Positions 1-32,689 of a stretch of DNA of 64,000 nt are shown here, piece by piece. The translations under genes were made by a program, and so were the position numbers. Within the stretch, counting starts at the first letter, position 1; every line of letters starts with the position of its first letter. The notes below the pieces were generated by a model, which worked only from the letters and a program-made list of their open reading frames with translations, searched no databases and had not been told where the DNA came from. The DNA comes from Russula earlei (Eukaryota; Basidiomycota; Agaricomycetes; Russulales; Russulaceae), in assembly GCA_025769875.1 (NCBI GenBank), contig JAGFNK010000003.1, forward strand, positions 124,001 through 188,000, read 5' to 3'.

Positions 1-1490
1 GCCTCAGAAATCTGAAACTCCACATCCTTCTACTTCTACTCCATGACATGGGGGCAACAGGGTGAGGACGGCGGCACAAGGCTTCCAGTCAGTGATGGAC
101 AAGTTCATGCGAGTGCTCACTCAGGTGATTGAGAGCAATAGAGATGTGGTTATGGACAGCATGGGGATTGTCATGCGATGCTTGAAATGATATGCTAGAG
201 AGGGAAAGTCATGCACAAGACAGAACCAGCCTGGCCGATGCTGAGCATTGCCTCCCAGAGGCACATGCAGGACAGGCAGGACAAGGCATGGGGCTCAAGC
301 CAAGATGGGCAAGCTGACAGTGAGAGGCTATGACATGAGTGGGCAGGATGACAATGAAGGCTGTAGGACAACGAGAGCCTGCCTGAAAGATGACAGGTGG
401 GGCAATGATGGGGGTGGAGGAACACGACTTGATTGCACTGGCCACAGATGCAAGGAGTGGGTGCATCAGGTGTCCAAGGCACAAGCAGCGATGAAGGATG
501 AGCAAGACTGGCCGAGAGTGAAGCCAAGGTGCAATGAAAGGAGAGGAAAGTTGAGGGAGGAGGAATGGCGCAAGGAAGGAAAGACACAGGGTGACTGAAA
601 GACAGAGTGAAAGGAAGGCCCAGTGGACCACACAGACATGGGGTGATCACCAGCACTGGTGGACAAGGCTGCATTGGTGGTAGTAGGAATCAAAGCTATG
701 TGTGGTGCAAGATGAGGAGGCAGACAAGACTGAGAGATGAGACAAATGGCACCATGCATTGGGGCATCAGCCAATTACCCCATGATTCATGAGATTCTGC
801 AATGAGCGGCAGTGGGAAATCTGCATTACATCGGACCTAGTTCTCTCAAAATATATGTGCAAATTCCATTGCTAACAACTAGTTGCCATGTGCTCCGGAA
901 ACCTTGCTGGTATTGCCCTGATTTCTGACCAAAATGGTTGCAAGCCTTTGATCAAATCATGACCAAATGCTCAAGAGTCTATGGTCATAGTTTAGCTTAG
1001 AAATGGCTTGACAAAGAATGTAGGGAGAACATATGCAATTACATCCAAGCTATGGCTGAAATCCTATAGCTCATCTTTGGGGAATAGCTTATACTTCATG
1101 TACAGTGTTTCCCTGCCCTCCAGCCACTGTGGGTTATAGGTGTTGAAAGGCAGGCCCAGGGGGGCATGTACCTTTTTGTGCACCTTCTGAGACCCAACAC
1201 ATAGGTGGGCAAATGCTCCGCACTTGTCATTGGACCAACCCTTGAGGTGGTTGCAATGGTGTAGTTGATCAAAAACCTTGAGCCAATTGTGCAAGTCCGG
1301 GTGTCACCAGTCCAGCTTGACAACTCCATATTTGATCTGATTGGTAGCTGGATCGAGATTGGATTCATCAGAGGACATTCCATTGACTCCTAATGTGTCC
1401 AAGATGGGCAGATGCCGCTGAAGTGGTTCATACTGTTTAGCAATGTCACGACAACGATGAAATAGCTACACTGCAGGTAAGCAACTGCGA
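1..1490 (-). repeat. Left arm of 1.49-kb inverted duplication
   Basis: Reading this stretch in reverse complement reproduces 14093-15582, with position p pairing with 15583-p. Every open frame of 60 codons or more in the outer 1.4 kb is identical between the arms, and I saw only isolated differences near the inner end (around 1455 and beyond 1487). The arm reaches the window edge, so its outer limit is unknown. It contains the decayed C-terminus of an Agaricomycete repeat-associated gene (1064-1428) and a C/T-rich tract. It ends abruptly beside the CpG-rich Crinkler locus. Confidence 0.93.
1064..1428 (-). pseudogene. C-terminal remnant of repeat-associated basidiomycete hypothetical gene (inverted copy)
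   Basis: This is the mirror image of 14155-14519. The frame reads a GMSSDES-type motif, then HNWLKVFDQLHH, and ends with GLPFNTYNPQWL and a tail rich in charged residues. I recognise this pattern as the C-terminal block of a family of unknown function that is very abundant in Agaricomycete genomes; that is recollection, not a search result. The frame contains a stop, and its upstream exons are absent from this arm, so it is not functional. Confidence 0.5.
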
Positions 1491-1715: not shown

Positions 1716-4245
1716 ATGAATCTGAAACTATTCGTCTATCTGATTGGAGGTCACTCATGTCAAGTAACGATTGACTGGTCGGAGTCCGTTTCGTCATTGA
1801 AAGAGGCAATAACAGAGAAATACCGTAACCAGTTGAAGGGTTTCGATGCCAACGCCCTCAACCTCTTCCAAGTCAGCTTCCCTGATAGCGGGAACCCTCA
1901 GGAGCTTGAGAATTCTGCTCGGGAAGCTTTGATTTCCACATCCATACCGCTTACAATGGCGTCTTCCCTCCTCTCTGAAATTTTCAAGGAGCCCCCCCCA
2001 AGAAAGACGGTCAGTATCGTCGTGACATCCCCAGACACCAGTGAGTGAGAGCGTGGCTGATAATGAGTGTTACTGATGACATCCTCGCTTCCGATATCCA
2101 TCCAATTCCAATGTGTCGACTGTCAACATTCTTGTGCGGTGACCATGTCGTTTTTACAGATCTCAGCGATTTGGATGATCAAATGGTTAAGAAACTCACC
2201 ACGATTCAAGTTCCGAATCTCAATTTATGGACTGCCCTTGGTGAAAGTGATCTTCGCTACAATAAAGTCAGGTGTGCTCGACCACCTTCAAAGCTTCGGG
2301 TTCGGGAACGTCTCCAACATCTGCGTTATATCAACACTGGTAGTGAAGATGTACGTGCAGTACTTCCTTGGTGCAGACTTACCTGACTTGTGTTGATCCA
2401 GATATACGCGGCTTTCCGTGAATTTGTCCGTTGTAATTCGAAGATCCCTGCATTGTCTTGGTCTTGGGACACGTATTTTGAGCACAAGGTGACAGAAGAA
2501 ACCCATCCATTGGAAACAGACGACATGTCCGTGACCGACAATGAACTTGGCCACTATATTAGCATCCTTAACAGCGAGTTAAGAAACCCGGACATTTATA
2601 AGCGCTATAAAGAATCACAAGTACGCGCCCTCCTCCTGGGATTCGTTCAAAGGCTTCAATGGAAGCAACACTCATGGGGTTTGTCAGTAAATGGATACAT
2701 CAAGTTACATTTACGTTACTCAATCCGACGTGACAGTGGTTCCCAGCTCCCTCTCCCTTTTGTAGTTGAATCAAAAAACGGATTCTCGAAGTACGCTCCC
2801 AAAAGTGACTTTCACATGTGTATCAATGGATTTCCCCACCTCCTCCTCGAAGTCTTTTCCGAACGAAATGAACGTGATCGATTCCGTATGCTTTTGCAAG
2901 CCTCCTGCATAACCCGAATAGCCAACTGGTTGCGAGCCTCAACAACCAAAGAAACCATTCTCGTCATGGCCATCTACATTGATCAGGATTTTCAAGCTCA
3001 TCAGTATCTTCTGTGGCAGCCTGATGAGACTCCCGAGCAGGTAGTGTAAAACCGGTTGACAGGATCGCTAAAAGCTAATGCAATAATTTTCAAGGTTCAT
3101 TACGACAGGACCTTATTCGATTTGACAGATCATCGAGGTGCATTTGACTTTATCTTTCAATTGTACAACTTCCTCTCCATAGCCAATGCTGACAATGCCA
3201 AATTCGACAACGACCATGCTAGTGAGCGGTTGGCAAAGGCAAAGGCCTCGGTGGAAAACAGTACGTACCCATCAATAACAAAGCGATTAAAGGATGAGAC
3301 TGGACGTAACTCTACACGTGCTCGTGGTCCACCCGCTGGTGAGGGGGCGAATGACAGTTTAGACAATTCATCAATACAGAGAGAGCTTGCGAGAGCGGGA
3401 TATACGCTCACCCAGCCGATATCAGAGCTCACGCCATTGACTCCTGTAAGTCGTAATTCCCATCGCTATGCCAGATAGTTGGTCTGACGAGCGGTATATC
3501 TATATCTAAGCTCAAACCTACAATGCGCCGAGCGACCTCGCGAGGTGGCGAGTTCGTTGTTCTGAAGACAATTTTTGACCCCAACGAGCCTCGATTGTTG
3601 CGGCACCTCAATAGTATCAAGGCAGGATCAAACCATACCATACCATTACTTGATGTCATCGACCTCAGTATTGGCAAAACAGTCGTCGCATTGCCATTGA
3701 AATCTCCCCTTGACGAGGTTTTACAATTCTGTGACCGTCCTGATAACGTTGTGTCCCTTTGTCTTCAATTTATCAATGGAGTGGCTTTTCTGCATCAGCA
3801 CAAGGTTGCACACCGTGACCTCAAACCCGAAAATGTCGTAGTTGATACGAAGTTCCAGTCGGAAACGTTCCCGCGGCTATTCATTATCGACTTCGACCTG
3901 GCACGGTTCGTCGAAAGCGAGGAAACAATGATGGAAGATTGGTGTGGGACGCCACCATGGATCGCTCCCGAGCTTGGAGACAGAGATGGGCCGATCCGGC
4001 GGTACAGTCCAATCCTAGCTGATCGGTGGGCTTGCGGGCAGATGGTCAAGCACTTTGCAAAACATTTCCCCCCGTCCAAGGACGAACGAAAAGCTACACT
4101 ACTAGCTTTCGCCCGACGACTTGTTGACGTTAACCCTAGAGCGAGGCCGAAATTGAAGGATTTGCAAGTCATGCATGGACCAACAAAGCGAAAATCAGCG
4201 AGACTTCAACACCAACCTAAGCCAAAACGTCATGCGGTGCTTTAA
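1716..4245 (+). CDS. Crinkler (CRN)-type protein with C-terminal protein kinase
   Basis: Five exons fit in phase: 1716-2040, 2160-2350, 2402-3040, 3095-3445 and 3511-4245, giving 746 residues ending in TAA. All introns are GT-AG (119, 51, 54 and 65 bp). Residues 1-106 match the fungal Crinkler N-terminal ubiquitin-like header: LKLFVYLIGG, SLKEAI, DANALNLFQVSFPD, LSEIFKEPPP and a terminal SIVVTSP strand. Residues 300-345 show D308, E322 (LLLEVF) and Q338 spaced like a PD-(D/E)XK nuclease core, which is only an inference. The kinase occupies about 507-720, with VLK (K521), HRDLKPEN (603-610), DFDLA in place of DFG (629), GTPPWIAPE (648-656) and DRWACGQM. The tail (727-746) is basic and could be a nuclear signal. 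There is no classical signal peptide. CRN-kinase fusions are known in fungi and oomycetes and act inside nuclei. The start was chosen because the header begins there. The gene lies between an inverted repeat and a retrotransposon, yet it has no stops or frameshifts. Confidence 0.85.
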
Positions 4246-5144: not shown

Positions 5145-5149
5145 ATGCT

Positions 5150-5692
5150 TGTAGAAACTATGGGGTTTAACGAGAGTGAGAGAAACGACAGTTTTTTGTG
5201 AGTGAGTGCCACGTCCGAAGGGAGGCCTACACGTTCGCACTCGCGAGGGTCGCTGAATAAGCAATGACTGTGCTCAGTGACTCGCGCGCGTAAGCGATCA
5301 CTGAAGATATATTACCTGAATAAGCAATGACTGTGCTATCCAGGTATGAGCTCTTATGGAACGTAAGAAAAGGGTAGCTAAAGGAACGTACCTCAGTGAC
5401 TCGCACGTGTAAGTGATCACTGAGGGAAGGTAAGTATTTTGTCTACTCATATAAGTAGGAAACAGGTGTGGATTCTGTAAGTCCGCGGACGAAGGGTATG
5501 CAAGAAACGGGACAATGATCGAGCCAATAGACATCCAGACTAGTTAATTAGTCTAGGTACTAATTGTTGTAAATAGCTAGATCCACTTAGGGTGGCCTAA
5601 TGGCATGGGTATATGTATTGACTGAGGGGACAACTCACTCGTTCTCGTGCGCTCACGATTGAGTTCACTCGCAGCTCGGGAATTTTACAACA
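5150..5692 (-). repeat. Copia-1 3' LTR
   Basis: On the plus strand it reads TGTAGAAACT to TTTTACAACA, so the element strand has the usual TG...CA ends. It contains two internal repeats: AATAAGCAATGACTGTGCT occurs twice, and a block running from CAGTGACTCG to TGATCACTGA (or CGATCACTGA) occurs twice, with inverted CAGTGA/TCACTG ends that could fold. Confidence 0.95.
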
Positions 5693-8600
5693 CTCCCCCT
5701 CGCTTTGTGGACAGGCTGAGTCCTGATGCAAAGTGTTTGACCTTCACGGAAGGGAGCACCTTGGTGAGCGCGTCGGCGAGCATGTCATCTGTTGGGCAAT
5801 ACACGAGTCGCGCAGAGCCTTGCTCAATGACCCATTGAATCCAGTGGTACTGGACGTCGATGTGTTTGGTCCGGGCGTGATACTGATGGTCACGTGCGAG
5901 CGCGATAGCTGACTGATTGTCAGAGAAAAGGGTGGTGGCGTTAGAGAGGGGGCCAAAGACTTCTGAGATAAGGCTGCGCAGCCATAGCGCTTCCTTCATC
6001 CCGTGAGTGGCCACAACGTATTCACTCTCTGTGGTTGAGAGCGAAATGATCTCCTGGCGCTTTGAGGACCAAGAGACAGCACCCCTGTCGATGAGGAACG
6101 CGTAGCCTGAGATGGTGCGCCGATCCTCGGCCATGCTGCCATCCGCGTCCGCATATCCTTCGAGGATGTGCTTTGTTTCGCTGTAAGTGAGCCACAAGTC
6201 ACGTGTGCCAGACAAGTAATGGTAAATTCGCTTGACTGCATGCCAGTGCGCTGGGCCTGGGTTTGTGGCGAACCGTGCTACTGGTGGCCACTGCAAAGGC
6301 GATGTCCGGGCGTGTGGAAAGTGCAGCCCAATTGAGGGCACCGACAGCCTCATGGTATGGTACATCGCGCATGGCGGCAGACTCAGCCGCGCTTGTTGGC
6401 GACTGCTCGCGCGTGAGGCGGGACTGTATGTCCATGGGTGTAGAGAGTGGTTTGAGCTCGTCTAAATGATAGCGACGAAGGATCGAGTCAATATATGCTT
6501 GCTGTGACATGTGGATGGTGCCGCCCGCGCGGTTGCATTGGATCTCAATACCGAGCATCCAATGGAGCTCGCCCAGGTCAGTGACCTCGATGTGCTCGCG
6601 CAGGCCATCCTTGAATTCAGTCACAAGTTGCTCGCTGCTCGCCGCGATTGTGCAATCGTCAACATGCACAGCGACGACCGTTATGTTCGCGCCCAGCTTG
6701 TCTGGACTTGTAAAACACGGCTTGATCAACAGAGCACTGTTTGAAACCGAGTGAGGCAAAAATGGAGGAGAGTTTCTGGTACCAACGCCTCCCAGATTGT
6801 TTGAGCCCATAAAGTGTCTTCACGAGACGTAGGACGCGTGTGCCTGCCCCTGGGTCTCGGTAGCCCGGGGGGTGTTGCATGTATAGAATTTCTTGGTTGT
6901 TGAGCACTGCCTGTTAAGGTAGGCCCCTTTGATATTGACCTGGTGGAGCTCAAGATGGAGGCGATTTGCCATGGCTATGATGGCGCGCGACGACGCAAGA
7001 CAGGCTACTGGTGCATAAGTATCATCGTAGTCAATACCTCCGATTTGGCTGAATCCTTGGGCGACAAGCCGCGCCTTGTAGCGTGTGATGTTGCCGGCTG
7101 CATCCTTTTTGGCCTTGAAGACCCATTTGGAACCAATGATGTTGGCTCCTGGGGGTGGTTCTTCGAGTCGCCAAGTGCCTGCAGTCTTTAGGGTAGCGAG
7201 TTCCTCTTTGATGGCCAGCTCCCAGAGGGGCCAATCAGGCCTCCACTTCGCTTCAGGTGAGCGAGTGAGGCTCCAACGCTTCTGCATCAGAAGTTGCAGT
7301 GGCGAAGGCATGTTCGAGGCCAGCGAAGTCTTCGAGGAGCATGGGCAGGCCATCGGCAACCGACCATGCTCCCCCTGCTTCCTCAGTGTCGAAAGAGCCT
7401 GGCAGGTGGATGCCGTGCGGTATGTGGGGAGCCCCACGGCGTGCGGAAGTAACGCCTTCAGCCTGCCTGGAGGTCACGGACGGTGCGTGAGGGTTTGCAA
7501 AGGTGGGTGGAGCGTCGAGGGCCATCTGTAATGCTGGTTTCAACTTCTTCTTCTGATGCTGGATATTGAATTGGTGCAGGCAGGGGTTCAGGTGATTGAG
7601 GTGGAATGGATGACTCTGGTGTGAGGTCAGGGTTGGGGTCAGGTTCCTCTTCAGGATGTTCGGAATGGGTAGGCGTTTTCGGGGACTTCATGCAGGCCTG
7701 GGGTCCTCAGCGTGCCACTTGCTTCCAGCGGTTGGGACCACGATGCGCTGCTCCCCCTCAAGCGGTGCACGGGATGAGAAATAGATGTCGTGCTCGACGC
7801 TTACAGTTCGAGTGGTGGGCCAATAGATTCTGTGGGCATGTGAATCAGTGTCTACCCTGAGCCATTTGCCTTCGCGTGCTCTAGGGTTCAACTTAGAACC
7901 CTTGTTGTTTGTGTGTACCCATACACTGCAGCCCCACCGGTGAAGGCCAGGACAAATCCGGCGGTTCCTTATGCAGTGCTTCATATGGTGTTTTGCCGTC
8001 TAGTGCGCGGGTGGCGGTGCGATTCTTGAGCCAGACAGCATGCCGCAGCGCTTCTCCCCATAGAGATTTTGGGAGCCCACTTTCGTGAGAGAGGGCACGC
8101 ATGCATTCTAGCAGAGTCCTGTTAAGGCGCTCTGCGATCCCGTTGTGCTGTGGTGTGTCATGGGTGGTGAGCCTGCCGCGTGGTGCCAGCCGTGGCCAGG
8201 TGCTTGTCAAAGGCGCCACTTAAGTACTTGCCTCCGTGGTCGGAGCGGAGCACTTTGATCGCACTGCAATGACCTTGTGACTTTGCCCATGCCTCAAAGG
8301 CTCTATACATTTCGAAGGCTTCAGATTTCTTGGTTAACAGGAAGGCGACTGTATAGCAAGTTGCAGAGTCAGTGAATGTAATGAAGTGTTTTTGACCCTG
8401 GTGTGTTGCAATGGATGCAGGCCCCCAGAGATCGCTGTTGATCTCTTCCCCAAAATGCTGAGCGGGAGTGCTGCGACGCACTTTCAGTATGGGGAGGCGG
8501 GTAGCGCGGGCGAATATACATGCTTCGCAGTCACTTGGCTTGGATGTAGTGTCAATGGTAATGCCTCGAACTGCTCCTGTTTGAACTAGTTTGAGGGCAC

Positions 8601-9160
8601 TTCCGATTGCGATGTGACCAAGGCGTCTATGTAGCTCCATGACTGAAAGTTCAACAGAGTGAACGTATTCAGTGCTGCGCTCTACATGATATAGTCCTCG
8701 TGTGCTGCGGGGTATGTGAGCTACTCGCCCACCTGTCGGAGCGACAATGTCCAAAAATCCATTATGCAGCTCCATGCAATAGCCCTCCTGATCTAGGGCT
8801 CCGAGTGAAACAAGCGTGTAGGCAACTTTCGGCGCATGGAGAACTCCTCGAAGTGTTAATGTGCGCCAGCCACCCACATCTGGTACCTGCACGGTTAGCG
8901 ATCCAACACCAATCACTTGAAACTGCTGCTGATTTGCAGTGATGAGAGTTACGGGTGGCGAAAGGGGGTGATAGCCAATGAAGTCCCCTCTATAGGGGCT
9001 AATATGCTTTGTGGCTCCGGAATCGTAGAGCTCGATGCGGGTCTCACTGCTGTTGACAACAATGGACGTGGCCATCTGCTGCATCCTTTCAGGTGAGTTC
9101 GAAAGCTCCCCCGCAGTTGTACTTTCAACACATGCGTCTCCCTGTAAGGAGCAAGTCAAG
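5685..9160 (-). pseudogene. Copia-1 pol (protease, integrase, RT, RNase H), frameshifted
   Basis: Read on the minus strand from 9160, the parts are: aspartic protease with DSGATKHIS; GAG-pre-integrase zinc motif around HRRLGH...CEAC; integrase core with DLWGP and SDHGGKYLS, then, after a frame change near 8200, NGIAERLNRT; reverse transcriptase from about 7250 (GSKWVFKAKKD, ARLVAQGF, TLYGLKQSGRRWYQKL) with catalytic VHVDD near 6660; and RNase H from about 6250 (YADADGS, TTESEYVV, DNQSAI, ADALTK), ending inside the 3' LTR. The frame changes at least four times (near 8200, 7950, 6900 and 6800), so no complete polyprotein can be made from this copy. Confidence 0.93.
5693..5703 (-). other. Copia-1 polypurine tract
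   Basis: On the element strand GCGAGGGGGAG lies directly upstream of the 3' LTR, the expected place for plus-strand DNA priming. Confidence 0.75.
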
Positions 9161-9339
9161 TCACTGGGTGAAATGTGAGCAGTGCCGTCTGCCTCCTCGG
9201 CCAGCCAAAACCCGTCTGCTTCAACCGCATCGTCGGCAATGGCGTTTGCTGACCTGACTGGTCGGGTTTCTGCTTTGGTGGGTGCTGGGGTGCTGCCAGA
9301 CTTGGGTGCGGGCTGCGCTCCTGCATTCCCCTCCTTCTT

Positions 9340-10200
9340 CAGGGAGCGGCACTCACGCGCCCAGTGTCCTGGTTTCCCGCAATTGTGGCACTTGCCTCGG
9401 CGACGCTTCTTCCTAGCGTCGTCGGACCCATGAGCAGCTAAGGCCTCGTCCGGCTGCTGGTCCCTTCTGCCTGAGCTTTGGCTATGTTGGCCGCGCCCAC
9501 GGCGGGTCTTAATTCAATCCGCTTCTTTGCATATAGAGGTGATGAGGGAGTCCATGGAGACTTGGCTAGTAGTGTTGGTAAGTCGCGCCACTGTCATAAG
9601 TCCGGACGCAAATTGCGCTAGCTGCTCAGGGATGCTGCGAAGGACGGTGCGCTGGTATTCCGTGTCGGAAACACTGACTCCAGACACATGGAGCTCCTCA
9701 CACTTGAAACAGAGATCTTGTAGGAAGATACAAACGTCCACGCCCTTAGCGCAATGGCTCTCCAAGAAGGCTTAGAGCCGGTCGCTCTGCACATATTCAC
9801 TTTTTAGCTTGTACTCCTGCGAGACTAAGTTTCAGCATGCCTCCGCGGTGTTGAGATGTCCCACGCATACTGTGACAGCATTGGGGAGACGTTGGCAGAG
9901 CAGGAACCGTGCGATGCGGTCATTGCGGTCCCAGGCCTTCACAGCCAGGTCTTCATCGGCGGTTGGACTCTGCGGGTTTGCTGGGGCAGGGCGTGTGGCG
10001 GTTCCGTCAAAATACCCCATTCTGTCGGTTGCCTCCATAGCTTGTGTGAAGCGCATGGTGAACACAGCCCAGTTGGAGCCGTTCAGTTCGAGATGAGGGA
10101 TAATGGCTGGGAGTTGATCAAAAGTCCCAGGTGCAGGCGCGGGCAACGGAGTTGTGGGTACAGCTGAGGATGTGGAAGCCATCTGAGGGCTAGGGCCCAT
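9340..10200 (-). pseudogene. Copia-1 gag, interrupted by stops
   Basis: The ATG at 10200 overlaps the primer-binding site; a second ATG at 10182 may be the real start. The N-terminal part (LELNGSNWAVFTMRF, then MEATDRMGYFDGT) is typical of copia gag in the UBN2/DUF4219 group. Translation stops at 9832 and again soon after. The frame then continues with CFKCEELHVSGV and SIPEQLAQFASGLMTV and reaches a CCHC zinc knuckle (CHNCGKPGHWAREC) near 9355-9400. The stops could be CGA-to-TGA type changes, in line with the CpG decay of this copy. Confidence 0.88.
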
Positions 10201-10204
10201 AACC
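10193..10204 (-). other. Copia-1 primer-binding site
   Basis: On the element strand GGTTATGGGCCC follows immediately after the 5' LTR end. Its position is diagnostic; the tRNA that matches it was not determined. Confidence 0.6.
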
Positions 10205-10746
10205 TGTAGAAACTATGGGGTTTAACGAGAGTGAGAGAAACAACAGTTTTTTGTGAGTGAGTGCCACGTCTGAAGGGAGGCCTACATGTTCGCACTCGCG
10301 AGGGTCGCTGAATAAGCAATGACTGTGCTCAGTGACTCGTGCGTGTAAGCGATCACTGAAGATATATTACCTGAATAAGCAATGACTGTGCTATCCAGGT
10401 ATGAGCTCTTATGGAACGTAAGAAAAGGGTAGCTAAAGGAACGTACCTCAGTGACTCGTGCACGTAAGCGATCACTGAGGGAAGGTAAGTATTTTGTCTA
10501 CTCATATAAGTAGGAAACAGGTGCGGATTCTGTAAGTCTGCGGATGAAGGGTATGCAAGAAACGGGACAATGATCGAGCCAATAGACATCCAGACTAGTT
10601 AATTAGTCTAGGTACTAATTGTTGTAAATAGCTAGATCCACTTAGGGTGGCCTAACGGCATGGGTATATGTATTGACTGAGGGGACAACTCACTCGTTCT
10701 CGTGCGCTTGCAATTGAGTTCACTCGCGCTTGGGAATTTTACAACA
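10205..10746 (-). repeat. Copia-1 5' LTR
   Basis: This is a near copy of 5150-5692. I count about 18 differences by eye. Apart from a one-base indel they are transitions, and almost all fall where one copy has CG and the other TG or CA, for example CGACAG/CAACAG and GTCCG/GTCTG. Confidence 0.95.
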
Positions 10747-10751
10747 ATGCT

Positions 10752-12285: not shown

Positions 12286-14519
12286 GTGTCACCAATATGG
12301 GATCAACCAACAGGATTTACTGACCATGAGCTGTTGAAGAAAGGACTGGTAGTCCAGCTTTCAAACTTGTCAATAGCCGCCACAAGGGTCAGCACATTGG
12401 TGACCTCCCACATGCACAGGTTGCAAACCCATTTGAGGCAGATGACAAAGATGGTTGGGAAAAAGGGTAGCATGGATGAGACCAATTGGTATGCACATCA
12501 TGCCACAACACCTGTGAAACTTGTAAAACAGCACAGTTCTCGTTCAGGAAGTGGTGAAGTTTTCCTTTGCCTGAGATGAGTGTGGCTGATTTATGTTGGC
12601 ACAGACTTGGAGCCAATCTTGGAGCATGACCAAATGCATAAGCACTCATCCCCATGTCATCTACTACTACATTCTGTTAACATGTTTTCAAGCTCAAGCG
12701 AAGAAACGATTCCATGGAAGTATCTCCAGGAGAAGTGACTCACCAATAAATCAAAGCCAGGATATTATGGTCATGGTATGCCTACTTTTCCATTATTTGC
12801 TAGCAGTTGCATATTGCTTGAGGAAATCCAGGCTACACCATGGGCTATAGTACCTGGCCCTAATCAAATAAAAGAGGATGTGACCCAGACTTGTAGTTCT
12901 CAATCTATTGACAGTATGATGACATATGCAGGGTGGGTCCAAGAGGACAGAGTATGGACTCCAAAATACACCCAGAGTACAATATTTGATCTCTTTCCTA
13001 TAGACCAGCATCTGTGCAGGATCTGGGGAAATATGAAAGGACTCATGCAACAGAGGTTTGGCTGAGGTGGAAGATATCTCACCAACTGATGAACATATGC
13101 AGGACCCATGGAGATTCTATGCCTCAGATTCGCCAATATTCTGCAATTCTGATTCAGAGGAAGAAGTGTATGCATCAGTTAATGATGTCAAGAAGGCCCT
13201 CAAGCCAGAAGACCAAGGTTGTGACTAAGTTAGGAGCAGTTCCACAGGATCATATGTGAGTTAACCTCACTTTACTTCCACATGTCAAATTAATGTAAAA
13301 ACAACTCCAAAGCTACCGAAACAGCCTGGACCACCCCACACACCTGAAGATGTGCCCGCAAAGCCCATATCACTACCTGCACCATCCCTGTCAACAATGC
13401 ACCAGCCAACATTCTCTTTACAGCTGGAAGCTAATTACCTACTGCTAGGCCAAAATTGGCTTACAAGTCAACTGGGGAGTCATGCTCCTGTTGTTGGCCT
13501 ACCCTACCAAACACTAGAGAGCCAAAACCATGACACCAGGAGTGTTGGCGGCAGGAATAAGAATGCCAGATGCAGATGAAGTCCACAACAGCGTGGGATT
13601 CAAGAAAAGGTACTAGCTGTCAGTACCCAAATCAATCTTTGCAATATCCTTCCGAGCTGATTACCACCCAAGTAGAAATTGATCTGGGTTGAACTTGCTT
13701 TGCTTTTAATAGCAATACCACCATACAGCAACACACCTGAGCCTTCTCGTCTTGTCACATTCACAACTGAATGGAAGTGCACTGGCCAAGGTGCAAGGGC
13801 TTGCAAAGCCACCACAAGCGACTTTATGATTGATATAGCGGGTACCCTGAAGTCTCCCTGGAATGTTTCTGCTGGCTGAGTGTTTACTAGTTATCTGATT
13901 GAGAAGGTGGGTTATGATGATACAGAAGGAATGCAGAAGGCAATAGAGAAGATGTTTTGCACCAGGATAAAGAGTCTAAAGTCATGTCATAAAAGAAATG
14001 TGCTGTCACATGCAGAGAAAGCAGTGGAGAAATCCAAACATAGCCAGTGGCAGTGTAAATACCAGGTGATTGTCATTTCATTTCCACAATACTTGCAGTT
14101 GCTTACCTGCAGTGTAGCTATTTCATTGTTGTCGTGACATTGCTAAACAGTATGAACCACTTCAGTGGCATCTGCCCATCTTGGACACATTAGGAGTCAA
14201 TGGAATGTCCTCTGATGAATCCAATCTCGATCCAGCTACCAATCAGATCAAATATGGAGTTGTCAAGCTGGACTGGTGACACCCGGACTTGCACAATTGG
14301 CTCAAGGTTTTTGATCAACTACACCATTGCAACCACCTCAAGGGTTGGTCCAATGACAAGTGCGGAGCATTTGCCCACCTATGTGTTGGGTCTCAGAAGG
14401 TGCACAAAAAGGTACATGCCCCCCTGGGCCTGCCTTTCAACACCTATAACCCACAGTGGCTGGAGGGCAGGGAAACACTGTACATGAAGTATAAGCTATT
14501 CCCCAAAGATGAGCTATAG
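12286..14519 (+). pseudogene. Decayed repeat-associated basidiomycete hypothetical gene
   Basis: Short coding-like stretches appear in shifting plus frames. The best preserved part runs from about 13895 (YDDTEGMQKAIE, then RIKSLKSCHKRN and AEKAVEKSKHSQWQ) and continues into the C-terminal block at 14155-14519 (GMSSDES, HNWLKVFDQLHH, GLPFNTYNPQWL). I recall this combination from a very common Agaricomycete family of unknown function. The upstream part (12286-13600) gives fragments I cannot identify. Stops and frameshifts are frequent. The 3' block is duplicated in inverted form at 1064-1428. Confidence 0.45.
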
Positions 14520-15582
14520 GATTTCAGCCATAGCTTGGATGTAATTGCATATGTTCTCCCTACATTCTTTGTCAAGCCATTTCTAAGCTAAACTATGACC
14601 ATAGACTCTTGAGCATTTGGTCATGATTTGATCAAAGGCTTGCAACCATTTTGGTCAGAAATCAGGGCAATACCAGCAAGGTTTCCGGAGCACATGGCAA
14701 CTAGTTGTTAGCAATGGAATTTGCACATATATTTTGAGAGAACTAGGTCCGATGTAATGCAGATTTCCCACTGCCGCTCATTGCAGAATCTCATGAATCA
14801 TGGGGTAATTGGCTGATGCCCCAATGCATGGTGCCATTTGTCTCATCTCTCAGTCTTGTCTGCCTCCTCATCTTGCACCACACATAGCTTTGATTCCTAC
14901 TACCACCAATGCAGCCTTGTCCACCAGTGCTGGTGATCACCCCATGTCTGTGTGGTCCACTGGGCCTTCCTTTCACTCTGTCTTTCAGTCACCCTGTGTC
15001 TTTCCTTCCTTGCGCCATTCCTCCTCCCTCAACTTTCCTCTCCTTTCATTGCACCTTGGCTTCACTCTCGGCCAGTCTTGCTCATCCTTCATCGCTGCTT
15101 GTGCCTTGGACACCTGATGCACCCACTCCTTGCATCTGTGGCCAGTGCAATCAAGTCGTGTTCCTCCACCCCCATCATTGCCCCACCTGTCATCTTTCAG
15201 GCAGGCTCTCGTTGTCCTACAGCCTTCATTGTCATCCTGCCCACTCATGTCATAGCCTCTCACTGTCAGCTTGCCCATCTTGGCTTGAGCCCCATGCCTT
15301 GTCCTGCCTGTCCTGCATGTGCCTCTGGGAGGCAATGCTCAGCATCGGCCAGGCTGGTTCTGTCTTGTGCATGACTTTCCCTCTCTAGCATATCATTTCA
15401 AGCATCGCATGACAATCCCCATGCTGTCCATAACCACATCTCTATTGCTCTCAATCACCTGAGTGAGCACTCGCATGAACTTGTCCATCACTGACTGGAA
15501 GCCTTGTGCCGCCGTCCTCACCCTGTTGCCCCCATGTCATGGAGTAGAAGTAGAAGGATGTGGAGTTTCAGATTTCTGAGGC
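14093..15582 (+). repeat. Right arm of 1.49-kb inverted duplication
   Basis: Inverted partner of 1-1490. On this side the homologous sequence continues upstream (13870-14092) and downstream (15583 onward) in the same repeat. This suggests that this arm is the donor and the left arm is the inserted copy. Confidence 0.93.
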
Positions 15583-17454
15583 ACAATATCCACAATTTGG
15601 CTTCCCTTTATGATTACAACTTGTTGTTTCTTTGGTTCCCCTCTATGATACTCCCCTTGCATCTGCCCCTGATCATTTGTATTTGCACTCCATTTGTCTG
15701 TTGAGTCTCATTTACAGTGTTCCTTGCACATCTTATTGTTTTGAACCCCTGCCTCCACCCCTCTCACACTCTGCTTTCCCTTCTGCCTCTCTCACCTTGT
15801 GTTTCATCCTTCTTCTGAATCATAGTGTCATGATAGTATAAAAAACTAGATAGAAAATTTGCTCAAATGTCAGTTCACTGTTGTCTTTGTGTCCACTTTA
15901 TTCTCTCTTTGTGTGCCTAAGGAGCTGGAGTCACTGCTTGACTCCTCCTGTGAGCCTTTGGATTCTGTTCATCTCTAATTTGACAGCCTTGCCACCATCA
16001 CAACAGCCTTCTTATTTGTCCTCACCCTGCCACCTGCCTCTCACCTCCAGCTGCCTCCTCGACTTTCAGCCTTCACTGCTCACTGCTTGCCACCTCCTCT
16101 TCCCTCTCTTTCCCTTCTCCAACTTTCCCCTCCTCTACTTTCTCGCATTCCAGCTCCCACACCTCAGACTTGGACGACCACCAGGTAGTCTTTCTATGGT
16201 CACACAACACCTTTGGGGTTCAAGACACCCATTCTGGCTAAGTCACACCTGGCCACATGAGATCTATGATTTCACAAATATTGACATCAACTCTACCTGC
16301 AATTGTGTGGAGCAAGGGGAATGGGGAGTATTGGCAAATATGGCATCCCCAGTTGGACAGTCATGCTATGTCCCTGTGAACTCAGAGCCCCTACTGGCAA
16401 ATGTCACAGTGACAAACAGCATGTTTTTTTTTTATTTCACCACACAATGCATTTTTCACCAGAAAGTTGTATTGATGTGTAGGTAGAGAGTACTATGATA
16501 GGTGTTAAATAAGAAATTTGTGAGTAATTGATGGTGTCCAACTGAGGGTGCCAGAACAGTACTCAACAGAATGGATTAGTTCAAGGACAACAAGGCCTGG
16601 ATACATGAATGGGTGTCGGTCCCTACACTGACTGACATGAATGGTCATGAATTGGCTTTGGCTGAAAAGAGCAGACAATAGGTATCCTTTTGTAGATTGC
16701 CCATGCCTTAGAGGATAAGAAGAGGGGGACCGAGGCATTGGGTTGGCATGTGTGAGGTCCATGAGGTGCACAAGAGGGCTGACAGATCACAACAGTGCAG
16801 GAGTGGACATAAGGTCAAGTGTTTGTCAGAGCATAATCATAGGCGAGAGGCAAGATTGTCAACTAACAAGAGCATGGTCTTGGTCTTGAATCCATGTGAG
16901 GGGCAGTTGCTAATTAACTCATGATGTGAGGTGGACCTCATTACACCAGGTTCCTGTCACATCATATGTTGTAGTCAATCCTCTGCACACATGGCATGCA
17001 TGCCTGACAGCTGAATGGACCTGAAGATGGTCAACCTTCATGGTTTCACACATCATTTGATTTTGGTTGGACGTGCTCTATTTTGTCCAACATTGAATGT
17101 TTGAGCATCCTGATTCTCACTCATTTTTCTAGTCTCGTCCCCTCAATTCAATTGTGAGGTGTTGAGTTGTGTTTCACTTATCATTACTGTGTCAAGCCTA
17201 GCCATTTGACACTTTTTGTGGGTGGCTGACTTCACCTTCATGCCTTCCCTCACCTCTCCAAGTCACCTCTGTTGGCCAAAAGACCGCAATCTTCAAATGT
17301 AGGGCAACTCAGTTGAATGGTGAAAGCTGTGAACAATGTGATCCTGCTAGAAGTTCGTGCCAGCTGACTAGTATTACCCTTGAGCCCTTTTTGACACCAC
17401 AATGGATGAATTCCCAGTGTGTCTTTGGCACTCAGTGCTGATACTGACTCATCT
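15583..17454 (+). repeat. CpG-poor continuation of C/T-rich repeat, then unassigned repeat DNA
   Basis: 15583-16200 continues the dispersed pyrimidine-rich repeat that is also present at 4246-5144, with CG sites mostly changed to TG or CA. Around 16630-16690 a short segment (GGCTTTGGCTGAAAAGAG, then GACAATAGGTATC) resembles 22320-22360. The rest is CpG-poor with no credible gene. Confidence 0.4.
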
Positions 17455-18003
17455 TGTTACAACATTTTCCTTTTATGTTTACCTCTTACCTTTGCTATGG
17501 ACTGCTTGCTTTTGTACGTCCCTTTACCTACTGGTCTCATGATCTCTTATGTCTTGTGATCTCTTCTGTGTTATCATGTGATCCATACACATCCAGGTAA
17601 CACTGGATTGCTGTTACTTTCCCTTTGTTTGGTTTTCTTTCCATTTATATTTACTTCCTAGTTTTGACTGTGCAATGCTGCGCACTTACTGTGCAGTGAG
17701 AAGAGCTCTCCTCCTTCAAGACATACCTTCCTCTCTCTGCATGTTCAAGGTCTACGACAAACTTGAACATATATAGCTAGTGGAACCAGCCCTAGTCTAT
17801 CCCATTACAAACTTACCCTAGCTTCTCAACAGACCGAGTCATACTAGGAAGGGTCTATTGTCCATAACCTGTTTAGCATAAAACACTTTGACTGCTGCAG
17901 GGATCCTTACTCTTTACAATGGGAACCAGCCCATTTTTCAAAACACACTTTACTATCAACTCGACTTCAGGCTTGAGAACTGACATGGCTCGTTACCATG
18001 ACA
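17455..18003 (+). repeat. Solo LTR, family D (short copy D2)
   Basis: It runs TGTTACAACA to ACCATGACA, 549 bp, with CATCT before and CATCG after (4 of 5 target bases agree). It matches 33755-36567 once the nested LTR-B copies there are removed, but lacks a stretch of about 320 bp corresponding to 34965-35285. It preserves the unoccupied site ACCCTAGCTTCTCAAC that is filled by LTR-B6 in the other copy. Confidence 0.82.
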
Positions 18004-18379
18004 CATCGAGGCACTCACACGGGCTAATTAGAACCTTCACCCTTTGCATCCCCTGTGCTAGTCATCTACACAGGCTGATTGGGCACTACTTTCAATGTTT
18101 TCCAGGAGCATAATGGATGTTGTATTGTCCTCCAATGTTTCCTCAACTGTCAACCTTATGTACTTTGATGGGGATCACTGGTCTTTTGATTTCCTTTTCT
18201 GAGCTGTCTCTTTGTAGCTTGTGGATGTCATGATGCCAGATTTAAGGGCCAATATGTGTAACTTCATGTTTTTCCCACTGATTTATCCCAGTCTATTGCT
18301 TTCTAGAGTTCTCTTTCAACAATGGTTATACACCACCACCTGCTCCTTGATGTTGGCATGAGTGCTTACACACCTCTCA
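18004..18379. other. No gene seen
   Basis: CpG-poor sequence between LTR-D2 and a coding remnant; no frame or boundary that I can support. Confidence 0.4.
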
Positions 18380-18449
18380 GTTGCAAATTCAACTGGTTGA
18401 ATCCCTATCTTTGACACACAGAGTAAGCATGGAAAGGTTGCCAGCTACT

Positions 18450-18793
18450 TGTGGCCAAGAGTGCCTTGGTGAAAGCTTGACCACACTTTCAATGCAGATT
18501 TACCTGTACAAGAGAGTACCATCCATCTGCCTTACATCAATATTGAAAGGTTGTTCTCTATGCCCAGTCCCACACCACCAGAGGTATCTGATACCTTTAT
18601 TAAAGTCTCTGGCCACATGCTTTTGGTGTCAGGCTATTTTGACAACCGTCTCAAGCAAAACCCAAATTTAAAATGTGACTTTCCTCTCATCCCTTGGCAT
18701 GGGGAGATAGCAGTACTCTTTGTTGGAAAATGGAAGCCATTTTTGAAAAGGGGCCCACCTGAGCCTGTCATTCATTTTGCTATTGCACAGTGA
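18450..18793 (+). pseudogene. Fragment of unidentified repeat-borne gene
   Basis: A plus frame reads STIHLPYINIERLFSMPSP and continues to HMLLVSGYFDNRLKQNPN, GEIAVLFVGKWKPFLKRG and a stop at 18791. It looks like the conserved end of a real protein (composition and absence of simple repeats), but I do not recognise a function. The sequence upstream is decayed. Confidence 0.4.
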
Positions 18794-19536
18794 GTTTTAT
18801 CTGCTACTTGGAATGTGAGCTCACCTGCTGTACATATGTAGATATAGGGGGGTATGCTTAGCTTATGCTGAGCTTGGCATGCCTTTTCCTGCCCATTTGA
18901 GGATATTTGTATGTTTTCTCTTCAGGTTCAGCTAATCTAGCTTCTGACACAATCTCACCCCACTAGTGATGGGACCTGACCCATCTGGTGAATATAGTGG
19001 AGGCAATTAAGCTGCATTTGTTCAATATGCATATGCCATGTGGCATGTGTGGACATTCTAAAGTGGCAGTACAGAAATATTTTTTCTCTTTTCAAGATTC
19101 CTTTACTTAGTGAAACATGCATGAAGAGTAGGATAAGTGTAAAGGATAATGAAGAGTACCATGAGCAGTAGTGTGGTGTGCCTTACTCCCCAAACACACC
19201 ATGATATTCTGCTTGCCCATACCCATCTGACCTGACAAGTTCATTTCGACATGATTCCAGTCAGCAGACTCCAACATTCAAGCACCACCTTACTAGCCAT
19301 AGCCATTCATCTGCCACCTTCCATCAGGCTAGTGCCTAGCTTTGTCAGTATCCCACCAACAACAATGGTCCTCTCATGATCATTGTATGACCAAAAGAGA
19401 ACTATTGCTGCCTGTCCAAGCATCTAATTGGCTTTGACTTGAATAGGTCAGAGGGTCTATTTGTCCAACATAAATGAAACAAACACCTTGCCTTGCTTGT
19501 GTTTTCATGTTTCTTGTCAGAATCCTTCCCTGTTAA
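18794..19536. other. No gene seen
   Basis: CpG-poor intergenic or decayed repeat sequence. No frame or repeat boundary supported. Confidence 0.4.
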
Positions 19537-21250
19537 ATGGGCCATTACATGCTGAAGAAGACTCTTAGCAAGCATTATGATTCCTTCAACACTTTAGCAT
19601 TCTCACACAATGGCTCACTCTTTGCCAGCAGTGCTGATGATGGTCTCATCATCATTTTCCAGGGCAATGGCAGTGGCCATGAGATTCGCCAATTCCAAGC
19701 CAAGGCACCAGTAACAACATTACTTTGGCACTCTCAATTTGGTTTCACTGTGTTGGCTGGTGATACAAGTGGCAATGTGCATACATTGTGCCTCCAAACC
19801 ACAACATCAGTAAGTATTTCTTACACTACATTCAGGCAACAACTGAAGCTCCAGGTATAGCAAAACTCATTCTATCATGTCCTCAATAGCATACCCAGCC
19901 CAGTTCACTGTATGGCGCAGAGTGGTGTTTGGTTGGCTATCAGTTCAGGCAAAGTTGTTCAACTAATCAAGCAAGGAACCATTGGTCCATTCGAAGGGGG
20001 TCTTGTGGGCCTCCTAGCTGACCCAGGTAATCAACAGCTATTTGGAAAAGAGTTGCGCTCCTCCCAGACCCACCTAGGTTCTCAGAACTGGAAGGAGAGC
20101 TGCTAGAACCCATGGTGCATTCCCTCCATTTCTTGGGAGCTGATGACAAAGTCCTACTGGTGATGTACCTCAACCATGGCATCATGTGAGTTCTACATAA
20201 CGTCACTTATGATATACTAACTATCAGCAGCGCATGGAACCTAAAGACTCTTGAGACAAATTGGTGCATCCACCTGTGCTCATGTAAAATGTATGACCAA
20301 CCACTTCTGCCACTTTCCTGTTGTCCTCAGATTGACACAGAGGCTGTTCTGTGGTATCTCCTGATGAGACAACACTTGCCATTACAAACCTTTATGACAG
20401 CATTGACTGGTATTCCCTCAGTTCCAATCACTTTATGGATGCCTTGTTCCAACACACTACGACTCATCCAACACTGGAGAACATCATTCTCCCCATGGCT
20501 TTCATCCATGCTGGTAATGCCATGTTGTTGGGAATGTCATATGGATGTGCCTGACTCACCAGCGCAAAAGATTGGGGCTTGATAGAGAAGCTTCTGCATG
20601 AGTGTGGGTGATTTGACTTTTTCCAAACAAAAGTGAGTCTGTGACTGTTTCTAAACAGCTGAAGGCATTGTGCAAGCTGTGGTACATGTTTATTAAAATG
20701 TTGGTCTGGTTTTGACATTTGACAGTTTATGTGGCATGCTTCACTTAGGCCTACTCCTCTGGTTGGCATGCTTGCCAAATTGTGACAGGTGTAGCTGAGA
20801 GGGGTTTGGAGTCTGTAATTCAATATTGGATCCAGGAGCATACAGTGAAAAAGTGTCCGGAACCTGGATCACAATCAGCAAGGAAGCAAGTTCAGGGGCA
20901 GGCTTTAGATGTAATACCATGACATTGTATGTGTGTTGTGACCAACTAACCTACCCTTTGCAGACTTGGAGGCAGGCTTCAGTAATGGCCATCACCATTC
21001 TTGGTCTAGCCATCCTTATCGCCTTCTGGAACCAGGATACATAGTCCAACTATTCATGGCCCAACTATTGGCCTGGCAGCCGTCAGGAGTTCAGGTATGC
21101 AAAGCCAAGCCTTTTGAGATCACTCAAGTCAAAATGAGAGGGATGGTTACAATGGGCTTCAGATAAGAATAGTGGTGGCCACAAGCATGTCCCAGCTTAC
21201 CCCTGGGAACACCCAGATGAGGATGATACCAATGCTGACCTGTCAAGTTG
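19537..21250 (+). pseudogene. WD40-repeat protein, decayed
   Basis: The first exon (19537-19809, followed by GTAAGT) encodes a WD40 blade: SFNTLAFSHNGSLFASSADD, then GLIIIFQGN and TTLLWHSQFGFTVLAGDTSG. Later exons in other frames continue the same protein: CMAQSGVWLAISSGKVVQLI near 19908, LLEPMVHSLHFLGADDKVLL near 20100, SPDETTLAITNLYDSIDWYS near 20355, ILPMAFIHAGNAMLLGMSYG near 20490 and RGLESVIQYWIQEH near 20800. The order and spacing fit one intron-rich gene of a WD40 family that is repeated many times in Agaricomycete genomes. Stops and frame changes make this copy non-functional. CpG is depleted throughout. Confidence 0.72.
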
Positions 21251-21536
21251 AGGTTGCCTGCACTTCTCAACTTTAGCTTTTGTACATGTATGAATTACAA
21301 GTCAAAATCAACCTTAGTAAGCATGGGTGCCACCCACTGGCATTGCACATGCACATGTCCATGCGCCAAACTGATGAGAAAGCCTTGGCCTTTTGAAAAG
21401 AGCCACCAACAATGACAGAAGTCATTCAATTGTGGTTCCAGCTATTTGCTGATTTTCATTTCACTCACAAGCTCAACATGTTCTGGTACCCCCTCTTTTG
21501 AGGCCTTCTGTAGGCACATATGTGCAGCCTGTGGCG
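21251..21536. other. No gene seen
   Basis: CpG-poor sequence up to the target site of LTR-A1; nothing identifiable. Confidence 0.4.
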
Positions 21537-22157
21537 TGTTAAGGCTCCAAAGTGCCTTAAATAAGATCAATGGTCGCGTCTATGAACACGTCCTACCAAT
21601 GCAGATATGCTTGAGTCAAGCAAGCAATACTCATGGAGGGGAAGGAGTGTTAGATCCTTCTGGAGTATGGCAACAAGATGAGAGGGGCTCTGCAGATGGG
21701 GTAGGAGTCAACTGTTTGGGATTGGCAAACTAAGTCGAGCTTAGGGCTCAACTGTTACAACTGGGGGCCTTATATAGCCCTACAGGGATAAGGTTTGTGC
21801 TACTGTAGTACCGGTTGGTGCTATAGAAGCAAAACACGGCTCATAGAAGCGAGGTTGCTTCTATGTAAAACGATCTTGGTGCTGGAAGCATTAAGTGCTT
21901 CCCTAGTAGCAATCTCGGTGTCATAAGTACCTTCCTAATCAAGGAAGCGATGTATGTGGCAGTACAGGAACATCTGGGACAGAAGCAATGCTACTCATTG
22001 CTTCTTTAGTACATCTTCTGAAAGGTATGATCAATGCGTTCCGAACATGACATCAATGGACATAAATGGTCAAGATCTGACGCACACATGATGCAAACAA
22101 TGCAGTCCATAGTTCAGGTGTTCCGGCATCTTCCGGACCCCAAACCACTCGGCAACA
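21537..22157 (-). repeat. Solo LTR, family A (A1)
   Basis: TGTTAAGGCTCC to GGCAACA, 621 bp, with perfect target duplication TGGCG (21532-21536 and 22158-22162). The TATA-like box reads TATATAAGG on the minus strand, which suggests the strand. It contains a strong hairpin motif, GAAGCAATG-CTACT-CATTGCTTC, and repeated GAAGC words. No internal retrotransposon region is attached. Confidence 0.93.
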
Positions 22158-22162
22158 TGGCG

Positions 22163-22391
22163 GCGGTAGTTTGATTCCACCAACTCATGTGTTGCCTGCA
22201 CCGGAGACCAGCTTTGGACAAAGGTATGGTGCTGGTGCTACTCTAGCTAGAGCAGCACTCGGCCTTCACCAGCTTCACCAACCAGATGGCTTGAATGTTG
22301 GATGAATGACCTCATGAATCGGACTTGGCTGAAATGAGTGGACAATAGGCATCTTGATATATGCAAGGTTGCTGTGAATCGGTGCCAGTGA
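22163..22391. other. Spacer between solo LTRs A1 and A2
   Basis: Unique-looking sequence with slight similarity to 16630-16690 and no coding frame. Confidence 0.4.
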
Positions 22392-22396
22392 TAGAG

Positions 22397-22984
22397 TGTT
22401 AAGGCTCCAAAGTGCCTTAAATAAGATCAATGGTCGCGTCTATAAACGCGTCCTACCAATGCAGATATGCTTGAGTCAAGCAAGCAATACTCGTGGAGGG
22501 GAAGGAGTGTTAGATCCTTCTAGAGTATGACAACAAGATGAGAGGGGCTCTGCAGACGGGGTAGGAGTCAACTGTTTGGGATTGGCAAACTAAGTCGAGC
22601 TTAGGGCTCAACTGTTACGACTGGGGGCTTTATATAGCCCTACAGGGATAAGGTTTGTACTACTGTAGTACTAGTCGGTGCTATAGAAGCAAAACATGGC
22701 TCATAGAAGCGAGGTTGCTTCTATGTAAACGATCTCGGTGCTGGAAGCATTAAGTGCTTCCCCAATCAAGGAATCGACGTACGTGGCGGTACAGGAACAT
22801 CTGGGACAGAAGCAATGCTACTCATTGCTTCTTCAGTACATCTTCTGAAAGATACGATCAACGCGCTCCGAATGTGATATCAAGGAACATAAACGATCAA
22901 GATCTGACGCACGCATAATGCAAACGATGCAGTCCATAGTTCAGGTGTTCCGGCATCTTCCGGACCCCAAACCACTCGGTAACA
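22397..22984 (-). repeat. Solo LTR, family A (A2)
   Basis: 588 bp, TGTTAAGGCTCC to GGTAACA, with perfect target duplication TAGAG (22392-22396 and 22985-22989). Compared with A1 it lacks about 33 bp just before AATCAAGGAA. Confidence 0.93.
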
Positions 22985-23115
22985 TAGAGTTACACCTTGC
23001 AAGTTCAAGTTCAAGTTGAGATTCATGATCAAAGGGCAGGAACAGCTAGAAGCTCCCAGAGAAAGGGAGACAATGGTCATGTGAAGCCGTTGTATTATCC
23101 ACACTGGACAATAAA

Positions 23116-24301
23116 TTGGACCTTGAGATTGACCAGCATGTGTTGTTTCATCATCCCATTAATATTAACAATTGCTTCCAAGCTATGTCATCACCATACA
23201 CATCCATAGCTGCTATGGACCCCTCAAGCGACAATGACAACAACAAATGCTTCTCAGAGCAACTAGATGGTAGTCAAGTGTCTCCAAATGCTCAGAAGGT
23301 TACCAGCTATCACATTCTCAGTTTCAATATTAGTATCATATTGATGTGTGTTCTGATCAGACAATTCTCCGGCAGAGGTTCACTATGAGGCAATATAATC
23401 TGGAGCATGACAGTTGGCTTACAAACTTTGTGAAACCCACAGAGCGAGTCCTCAATGATCTGTGACATGCTCAATCAAGTGACCATGGTTAGACAGCCCT
23501 TTGACAAGCTTGCCCTTTGTTCAACATCATCTTCTAACCCTGCTAGTATGATAAATGAGTCCATCATAGCCATACTGCAACCACACACCTCCTCCCTGTC
23601 AATGCATATCATTGCTTGTGCCATAATCAGTCTCATTGCAGGAAACTTTGGTGATGATGACCTTGGCCAGATTTTGAATGCCCAACTTGACACCTTGGCT
23701 ATTTCTCCTCAAGCAAAACAAGCTATCATACCCACTCTTTTTGGTATTTCGAAGTTGATAGAAGTACAATCACAAGGGTAAGGTGATGCTGTCTTCATCT
23801 CAGTACATTGCATTCTCACTGCTTTTATGAATATACTAGCATACCCATGCCTCAGTTGCAGTTTCAGCCTGTGTCAGCATCGTTGTGTTTCAACTGCAAG
23901 GTAGCCATGAACACCCACCCTATGGGCTCCTTGGTCTTTTATCAGATGCACCATTGTCCATTTACTTCCAACTCTGGAAGTGGCTACACTACCTGGTTCT
24001 CTGGCAAGTCCAATACAAACATTCCATTGCCACCCATGGTTCCTGAAGCCAAGACTGGAGATCTTTATGTCCACTTTAACACATCTATGAATGGCTACCA
24101 ATACTGGATGCTTGACAGAAATAATCAGTGGGAAAGCATCTCAAAAGGTGTGGAGAACCCTCTGAACCATGACCAGGTCCTCTCAATTCACTCTAATGGT
24201 GAACCAAGTTGGGTCACTCAAGCATCGACAACCACTACACAAGGCAGAAAGGAGAGAGAAATGCAAGAGAAGTCAGTGCCAATGCATGTGTGCAAATCAT
24301 A
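23116..24301 (+). pseudogene. Basidiomycete hypothetical gene remnant
   Basis: Coding-like pieces in the plus strand include MSSPYTSIAAMDPSSDND near 23184, ISPQAKQAIIPTLFGISKLI near 23700 and a longer block at 23841-24276 (ASLCFNCKVAMNTHPMGSL; GDLYVHFNTSMNGYQYWMLD; QWESISKGVENPL; SNGEPSWVTQ). The last block resembles an Agaricomycete family I have seen only as 'hypothetical', which has a conserved GD(L/I)Y-H start and WVT end. The pieces probably belong to one gene with introns that also includes the DUF6532-like part further on. Several stops interrupt it. Confidence 0.4.
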
Positions 24302-24969
24302 GCTACACTTGGAATTGTGCTCAGTTTATGCCAAACAACCCCAATGAAGTCTTTCATAATGTACAATGCATTTTGCTACATGATGATGATGTGCAACAAA
24401 CTTGAAGGGCACTGGCATGTGGCCCAGGTGAGATTTAGGCAGATCCCATTGCCAAACCATTAAAACAAATTTTGGAGCATGTGGCCCTCTTTTCAATGGG
24501 TGGCTCTCCCCCTCCTCCACTCCAAGTCACCCTTTTCCCATCCCCTTGGTGCATGCTACTTATGTTTTTTTTTCTTGCTCCTTTTTCTTGCTCCTTCTGA
24601 CCTCCCCTCACAGTGACAGCATCAACCCAGTACACTTTTCTTCCTTTTTTACTCACTCTTTCTAACCTCTTCTCACCCAGAATGTCTCATGATGTGGGAC
24701 ACCAGTACTGCTGGCACCACAGCCAAGACCCCTGAGGGCTATGACCAGTTCCCTCAAGAACTGTGCCCCTGTGCACAACACAGGTGTGGTTTTTTTGTCT
24801 TTCTTCTATTTCTGTGCATTTTCGTTGCCATTCATTTTCATGCATGCAATTTTTACTTTTTGTCTTCACACGTTCTCTCTCACATCCCCTCCTTCCATTC
24901 TTCACTCAGTATGTTTTTCTCTTTTTTCTTCTCTTTTATTTCTGATGATTGCTATTCCTGACCTCTCTT

Positions 24970-32684: not shown

Positions 32685-32689
32685 TTGAG

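Follow-up and report, generated by a model that had tools for sequence, protein, structure and literature searches.

A Crinkler-type gene of the header-nuclease-kinase class in Russula earlei, probably assembled by swapping at or downstream of its first intron

How does a gene come to join a Crinkler header, a nuclease-like middle region and a protein kinase in one chain, and what might such a protein do in a fungus? The question is raised by a stretch of 64,000 nucleotides of Russula earlei (contig C3, 124001-188000; genome 66.6 Mb), here called the window, which carries such a gene amid repeats (Table 1). We propose that its product is a Crinkler-type (CR) protein, of the class that combines header, nuclease and kinase, and that the gene probably arose through an exchange of parts at intron 1 or downstream of it. 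The gene itself is real: it has a header, a kinase with its catalytic residues, open exons and a large family. Its arrangement is already known, because Crinklers joining a restriction-endonuclease-type (REase) domain to a kinase form a published class according to PMC5289972, and the window gene adds a member to it.

The five-exon model sums to 2241 nt, that is, 746 codons plus the stop. Assessed singly, none of the exons contains a stop codon, and the four junctions show GT/AG with agreeing phases, so that the intact frame described in the initial annotation is borne out. The Crinkler header, placed there at residues 1-106, corresponds to a PF20147 match of 52 bits (cut-off 24.6, E 1.4e-13) over exon-1 residues 4-103, and exon 5 matches the kinase family PF00069 with 76 bits (E 3.9e-21); the gene thus has both the header and the enzymatic C-terminal module of a Crinkler. 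Exons 2-4 gave no significant Pfam match, and a QRICH1 match in the gene (E 0.041), under the family cut-off, was discarded. The four introns named initially stand, but five exons are probably one too few. C140 and C120, two paralogues, have in their nuclease exon a GT-AG stretch that carries an in-frame stop and reads as an intron, and the same site is occupied in the window gene by a 54-nt GT...AG stretch, which was overlooked because it is in frame and open. The predicted structure of exon 3 has a low predicted local distance difference test score (pLDDT) at residues 81-111, coinciding with this candidate intron. Exon 3 therefore probably hides an additional intron, giving six exons; the residue numbers D308, E322 and Q338 used below follow the five-exon model, and splicing of the 54 nt would lower later numbers by 18.

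Table 1. Features of the window (positions are those of the window)
Feature	Position	Strand	Basis
Exon 1, ubiquitin-like Crinkler header PF20147, ends in phase 1	1716..2040	+	Pfam E 1.4e-13
Intron 1, GTGAGT...TTTTTACAG, 119 nt, proposed swapping joint	2041..2159	+	Intron comparisons between loci
Exon 2	2160..2350	+	Open frame
Exon 3, first part, mostly helical lead-in to the nuclease region	2402..2682	+	Predicted structure, paralogues
Probable extra intron, 54 nt, GT..AG, in frame and open	2683..2736	+	Paralogues C140/C120
PD-(D/E)XK-like nuclease core; D308 codon 2807-2809, E322 codon 2849-2851	2737..3040	+	Alignment, structure model
Exon 4, probable nuclease end, linker and start of the kinase N-lobe (by inference; no Pfam match)	3095..3445	+	
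Exon 5, protein kinase and basic tail	3511..4245	+	Pfam PF00069
Kinase motifs in exon 5	Lys codon 3565-3567; HRDLKPEN 3811-3834; DFD 3889-3897	+	
Left arm of inverted duplication, inner end; continues upstream of the window	1..1488		Pairs with 15582-14095, 99.87%
Right arm of inverted duplication	14095..25574		Alignment including DNA upstream of the window
Copia-type long terminal repeat (LTR) element, 5.6 kb	5150..10746	-	RVT_2 match, E 6.8e-13

The kinase retains the ATP-binding Lys of VAIK type, the HRD motif, the Asp of DFG and the APE motif of eukaryotic-type kinases, and the Gly of DFG is replaced by Asp; HRDLKPEN and DFD both lie where they had been reported. The DFG site was surveyed in 33 distinct kinase rows from the loci fetched for comparison, after removal of exact duplicates and of rows under 25% identity. 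Among the 30 rows that cover the site, 25 have DFD, three DFN and two DFG, and both DFG rows belong to loci that entered the set through a motif search and not through a Crinkler match. Since the Crinkler-type rows read DFD in 25/28 cases and DFN in 3/28, DFD is, judged from these rows, the usual state of this kinase family, a family trait and not decay. The kinase evolves under constraint, with a ratio of nonsynonymous to synonymous substitution rates (dN/dS) of 0.47 against the nearest paralogue, C71 (p 0.0017); the header value for the same pair is 1.01. The C-terminal tail of the kinase exon is basic.

This gene belongs to a large family. A PF20147 search of the genome returned 69 header matches, all above the Pfam cut-off, and none of 14 control genomes had any. 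Merged, the matches give 63 loci by one count and 61, spread over 43 contigs, by another, among them partial loci and loci with stops; 24 of the 63 are followed by a nuclease and then a kinase match, in that order (38 of 62 kinase rows used). No second full copy of the window gene was found among the matches in the genome. C71 is without window positions 2245-3382, so that its nuclease is gone, and a stop interrupts its kinase; its nuclease loss (locus L080) looks like a single deletion, and two comparable introns have diverged less than the synonymous sites of its exons. An annotated Russula earlei product, P0088 ('protein kinase PKL/ccin9'), matches C18 in pieces at 97-100%; the C18 header matches PF20147 (E 4e-21), and its C-terminus gives only kinase-like Pfam matches under the cut-off. 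At this locus (C18:119313, L042) an E-F-K motif lies mid-protein before a kinase-like C-terminus, which may mark a further nuclease-kinase class in this genome.

The evidence for swapping centres on intron 1. Between the window gene and C71 this intron is 94% identical, against 76% for exon 1 and 76% for the 85 nt of exon 2 that align. In the genome it finds 19 places, itself included, all of them Crinkler loci, which speaks against a dispersed introner; 18 lie beside a header match and one (C85:115772) before a header-less nuclease-kinase copy. In piecewise searches of the fetched loci, which overlap in many cases, intron 1 gave 33 matches and reached the C118 type, and the 119 nt of exon upstream of it, exon 2 and intron 4 each matched C71 alone. 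Introns 2 and 3 had no match among these loci, nor did the 63 whole codons of exon 2 have a protein match at E 0.01 among the other ones. Exon 3 (301 nt) found six loci and exon 5 (201 nt) thirteen, all in the C71/C140/C204/C120/C11/C491 group and none of C118 type. Compared with C118, intron 1 of the window gene is 80-81% identical and the third codon positions of the header 56%.

An alignment of 15 introns, divided into 5' and 3' halves, adds that over its 5' half the C118 intron shares 88% identity with C18/C191, which have a different C-terminus, and 86% with C306, whereas over the 3' half identity is 37-44%, about the level of unrelated DNA; the intron of the window gene, compared in this way, has 74-77% and 36-40%. 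At C18 the tblastn alignment of P0088 has a gap at the place matching intron 1, i.e., the annotated product skips DNA there. Header and payload have different nearest relatives. The header best matches C71 (59%), followed by C191, C18, C556, C1215 and C118-type headers (38-47%), and does not find the C140/C120 headers at E 0.01; for nuclease and kinase the closest relatives are C140/C120 (50-58%), with the kinase of the deletion copy C71 at 79%. C140 and C120 themselves have weakly scoring Crinkler headers (26 and 33 bits), and other DNA follows these.

Since the 5' half of the intron is common across C-termini and the 3' half is not, and since header and payload come from different lineages, an exchange at or near intron 1 is suggested: several classes would have traded payloads at the intron, and in the window gene the break would fall on the 3' end of the intron or a little past it. 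The window gene was thus probably assembled by swapping, with header and intron 1 taken from one Crinkler lineage and nuclease and kinase from another. A more general reading, which may well hold although we stop short of calling it probable, is that the conserved phase-1 intron behind the header is the joint at which Russula Crinklers trade payloads, that its likeness has been kept through that use and that the window gene is one of the products. Recombination inside intron 1 would then join one header stock to varied C-termini, and the intron would be kept more alike than its exons, by constraint or conversion, because of its use as a joint; the window gene's own exchange would lie at or just beyond it. 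In the literature searched on Crinkler exon shuffling and Russula Crinklers we found no description of an intron as a swapping joint.

Other properties of the intron were considered as well. No Rfam match at E 5 was found in 1900-2400 for a known RNA, and for a structured RNA the covariation term was 0.04, with a double change in 1 of 22 pairs (13 sequences). In C551/C9 the intron 1 copy measures 102 nt and is in frame, so that it may be retained in the mRNA. The C551 read-through frame, taken as coding, matched only P0088 and a partial Phytophthora idaei Crinkler; the latter (P0089) aligns with the header frame of C551 at E 3e-7, over 16% of its length. In C433 (L061, L063) Crinkler headers stand in one open frame of ~380 aa with no evident intron after the header.

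The middle region resembles, with moderate confidence, the PD-(D/E)XK nuclease fold, with the Lys of the motif absent. Over the 88 sequences used for the exon-3 structure model and the conservation counts, D308 is conserved in 80 and E322 in 77, so that Asp and Glu of the motif are both in place, as the initial annotation proposed; Q338, named with them, is not conserved, being Q in only 33/88. Two residues after the Glu, where the motif Lys would stand, the window gene has F, 64/88 sequences N and 1/88 K. Some nucleases of this superfamily, such as BamHI and BglII, lack the motif Lys. The model reaches block-mean pLDDT values of 70-87 across residues 121-210, and the order of its strands and helices matches PD-(D/E)XK enzymes (an earlier model on 18 sequences, at pLDDT 43.8, was too poor and was dropped). 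In a Foldseek search of the Protein Data Bank (PDB), 45 of the best 50 of 419 matches at E ≤10 can be read, in part from their titles, as nucleases of this or a related fold, the best at E 2.6e-3 with probability 0.96. Among the 50 viral structures listed, 19 bear nuclease names, 19 are nameless, 11 uncharacterised and one is a tailspike. A profile of the 88 rows found no PDB sequence at E 10, and Pfam scans of all 88 sequences gave scattered weak matches with at most 7 members per family (Las1, best E 0.015).

Several points weigh against a header-nuclease-kinase gene built by exchange at the intron. No Foldseek match to the exon-3 model reaches E 1e-3 and the VIA Z score is <8 for all folds compared, which, with the missing Lys, tempers the nuclease fold of the initial annotation that model topology and match lists dominated by this fold otherwise favour. 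In the C18-C191 pair (PKL class) the intron, at 0.92 and 0.94 against 0.91 for third codon positions, is not more conserved, and the split point of the intron halves was chosen by eye.

Do the surrounding repeats tell what the gene is for? The initial annotation rightly saw a retrotransposon beside the gene, but what it described as a 1.49-kb inverted repeat on one side forms the inner end of a ~11.5-kb inverted duplication, whose arms stand on both sides. The arms are 99.9% alike in the inner 8.3 kb (1488 nt at 99.87%, 6815 nt at 99.88%) and 91-98% further out, and the duplication extends to C3:110672. The 12.6-kb spacer between them holds the Crinkler gene and the Copia-type element, recognised by RVT_2, which we take to be a Copia-type reverse transcriptase. 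The inner edge of the duplication is probably the end of a repeat, because five of six diverged copies of 893-1485 elsewhere end at 1476-1485 (the sixth is cut by a contig end). The LTRs of the element are 96.5% alike, ATGCT 5-bp repeats stand at 5145-5149 and 10747-10751, and the element lies ~0.9 kb past the stop of the gene, which the insertion did not enter. To judge from these flanks, the retrotransposon inserted separately and has a 5-bp target duplication of its own, and the inverted arms belong to a larger rearrangement; the idea of a selfish module, drawn from the proximity of the repeats, is not borne out by them. Crinkler neighbours within 30 kb lie in opposite orientation in 9 cases and in the same orientation in 7 (p 0.80), so the counts do not support inverted pairing as a habit of the family, of which the palindrome round the window gene would be a case. 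The left arm contains a ~950-bp repeat that has none at its right-arm counterpart, and seven copies of a ~965-bp repeat, in both orientations and 75-96% identical, occupy 19 kb at 28760-47254.

Under the reading that we prefer, that of a swapped header-nuclease-kinase Crinkler, the protein would act in the nucleus, as its basic tail may suggest, its middle domain would cut or bind DNA and its kinase would regulate the nuclease activity, as proposed for the class; a conflict role is plausible by analogy with what is known of the family. Russula is ectomycorrhizal, and the gene might instead encode a secreted or translocated symbiosis effector, delivered into host root cells to act in their nuclei. 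We consider this unlikely. Named relatives occur in Russula and Lactifluus (3/70 matches) and there are precedents in the oomycete CRN8, where this has been shown (PMC3426532), and in RiCRN1 of an arbuscular mycorrhizal fungus, for which it is proposed (PMC6131194), but signal peptides were excluded for these headers in a 2016 analysis, as reported in PMC5289972, and ~61 header loci, some of them partial or broken, would equally suit a conflict within the genome. It is distinctly unlikely that the effector role falls to the kinase, with the middle region serving as a non-catalytic binding domain of nuclease fold: the Lys is missing, the Glu is substituted in 4 of 17 close relatives and the kinase of CRN8 is active (its authors holding cell death to be no direct result of that activity; PMC3426532), yet Asp and Glu are retained at the frequencies given above, in a superfamily where the Lys can be dispensed with.

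We find quite improbable a Spok-like killer-and-antidote gene, whose nuclease would kill nuclei or spores without the gene while its kinase protects carriers. The Spok proteins carry a nuclease and then a kinase in one chain, with killing dependent on the former and resistance on the latter (PMC6660238, PMC9972908, PMC12693581), and the paralogues C491 and C204b keep an open kinase with most of the nuclease gone. These two are near-identical copies, however, so that their nuclease loss is one event, and in the nuclease-less C71 the kinase, too, is broken by a stop. Decay of the nuclease with the kinase kept, which C140 and C120 had seemed to offer, was dropped as an argument because their stops sit in GT-AG introns. 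The catalytic Lys that Spok killing requires (PMC6660238) is absent from the window gene, and its N-terminus differs, being a Crinkler header in place of a coiled coil. No less improbable is a gene in decay that only looks intact within its repeat-rich spacer: the nearest paralogue is broken and repeats lie all round, but every exon is open, the kinase is constrained and its catalytic residues are kept.

Crinklers have been best studied in oomycetes, where C-termini recombine behind a fixed header motif. With ~61 header loci, an apparent intronic exchange point and an intact nuclease-kinase copy to set beside a nuclease-less paralogue, Russula earlei offers a system for questions of module swapping, and what such modules serve (symbiosis, defence or drive) could be asked in a fungus that is not known to be pathogenic.

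Among known systems the closest is the REase and kinase class of Zhang et al. 2016, which the summary in PMC5289972 puts at roughly a sixth of Crinkler C-termini; toxicity is believed to lie in the nuclease, and the kinase to have a regulatory role. The window gene shares with this class the ubiquitin-like header, REase-type middle and C-terminal protein kinase, and differs in a family core of E-V-N/F instead of E-x-K and, going by that summary, in a header joined through a conserved intron. As routes of Crinkler recombination, helitrons have been proposed in P. infestans (PMC5289972), and recombination after the HVLVXXP motif is mentioned in PMC3426532. CRN8 of Phytophthora infestans, as described in PMC3426532, likewise has a Crinkler header, a C-terminal RD-type Ser/Thr kinase and a basic nuclear signal, whereas the window gene is fungal and its kinase has DFD. 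SPOK of Podospora shares the order of nuclease then kinase in one protein, but by its descriptions has a coiled-coil N-terminus, the catalytic Lys of the nuclease and a kinase closer to ELKs (PMC6660238, PMC9972908). Within the same genome, P0088 (C18) shares with the window gene the Crinkler header, the position of intron 1 and its 5' half, and parts from it in the 3' half of the intron and in the C-terminus that follows.
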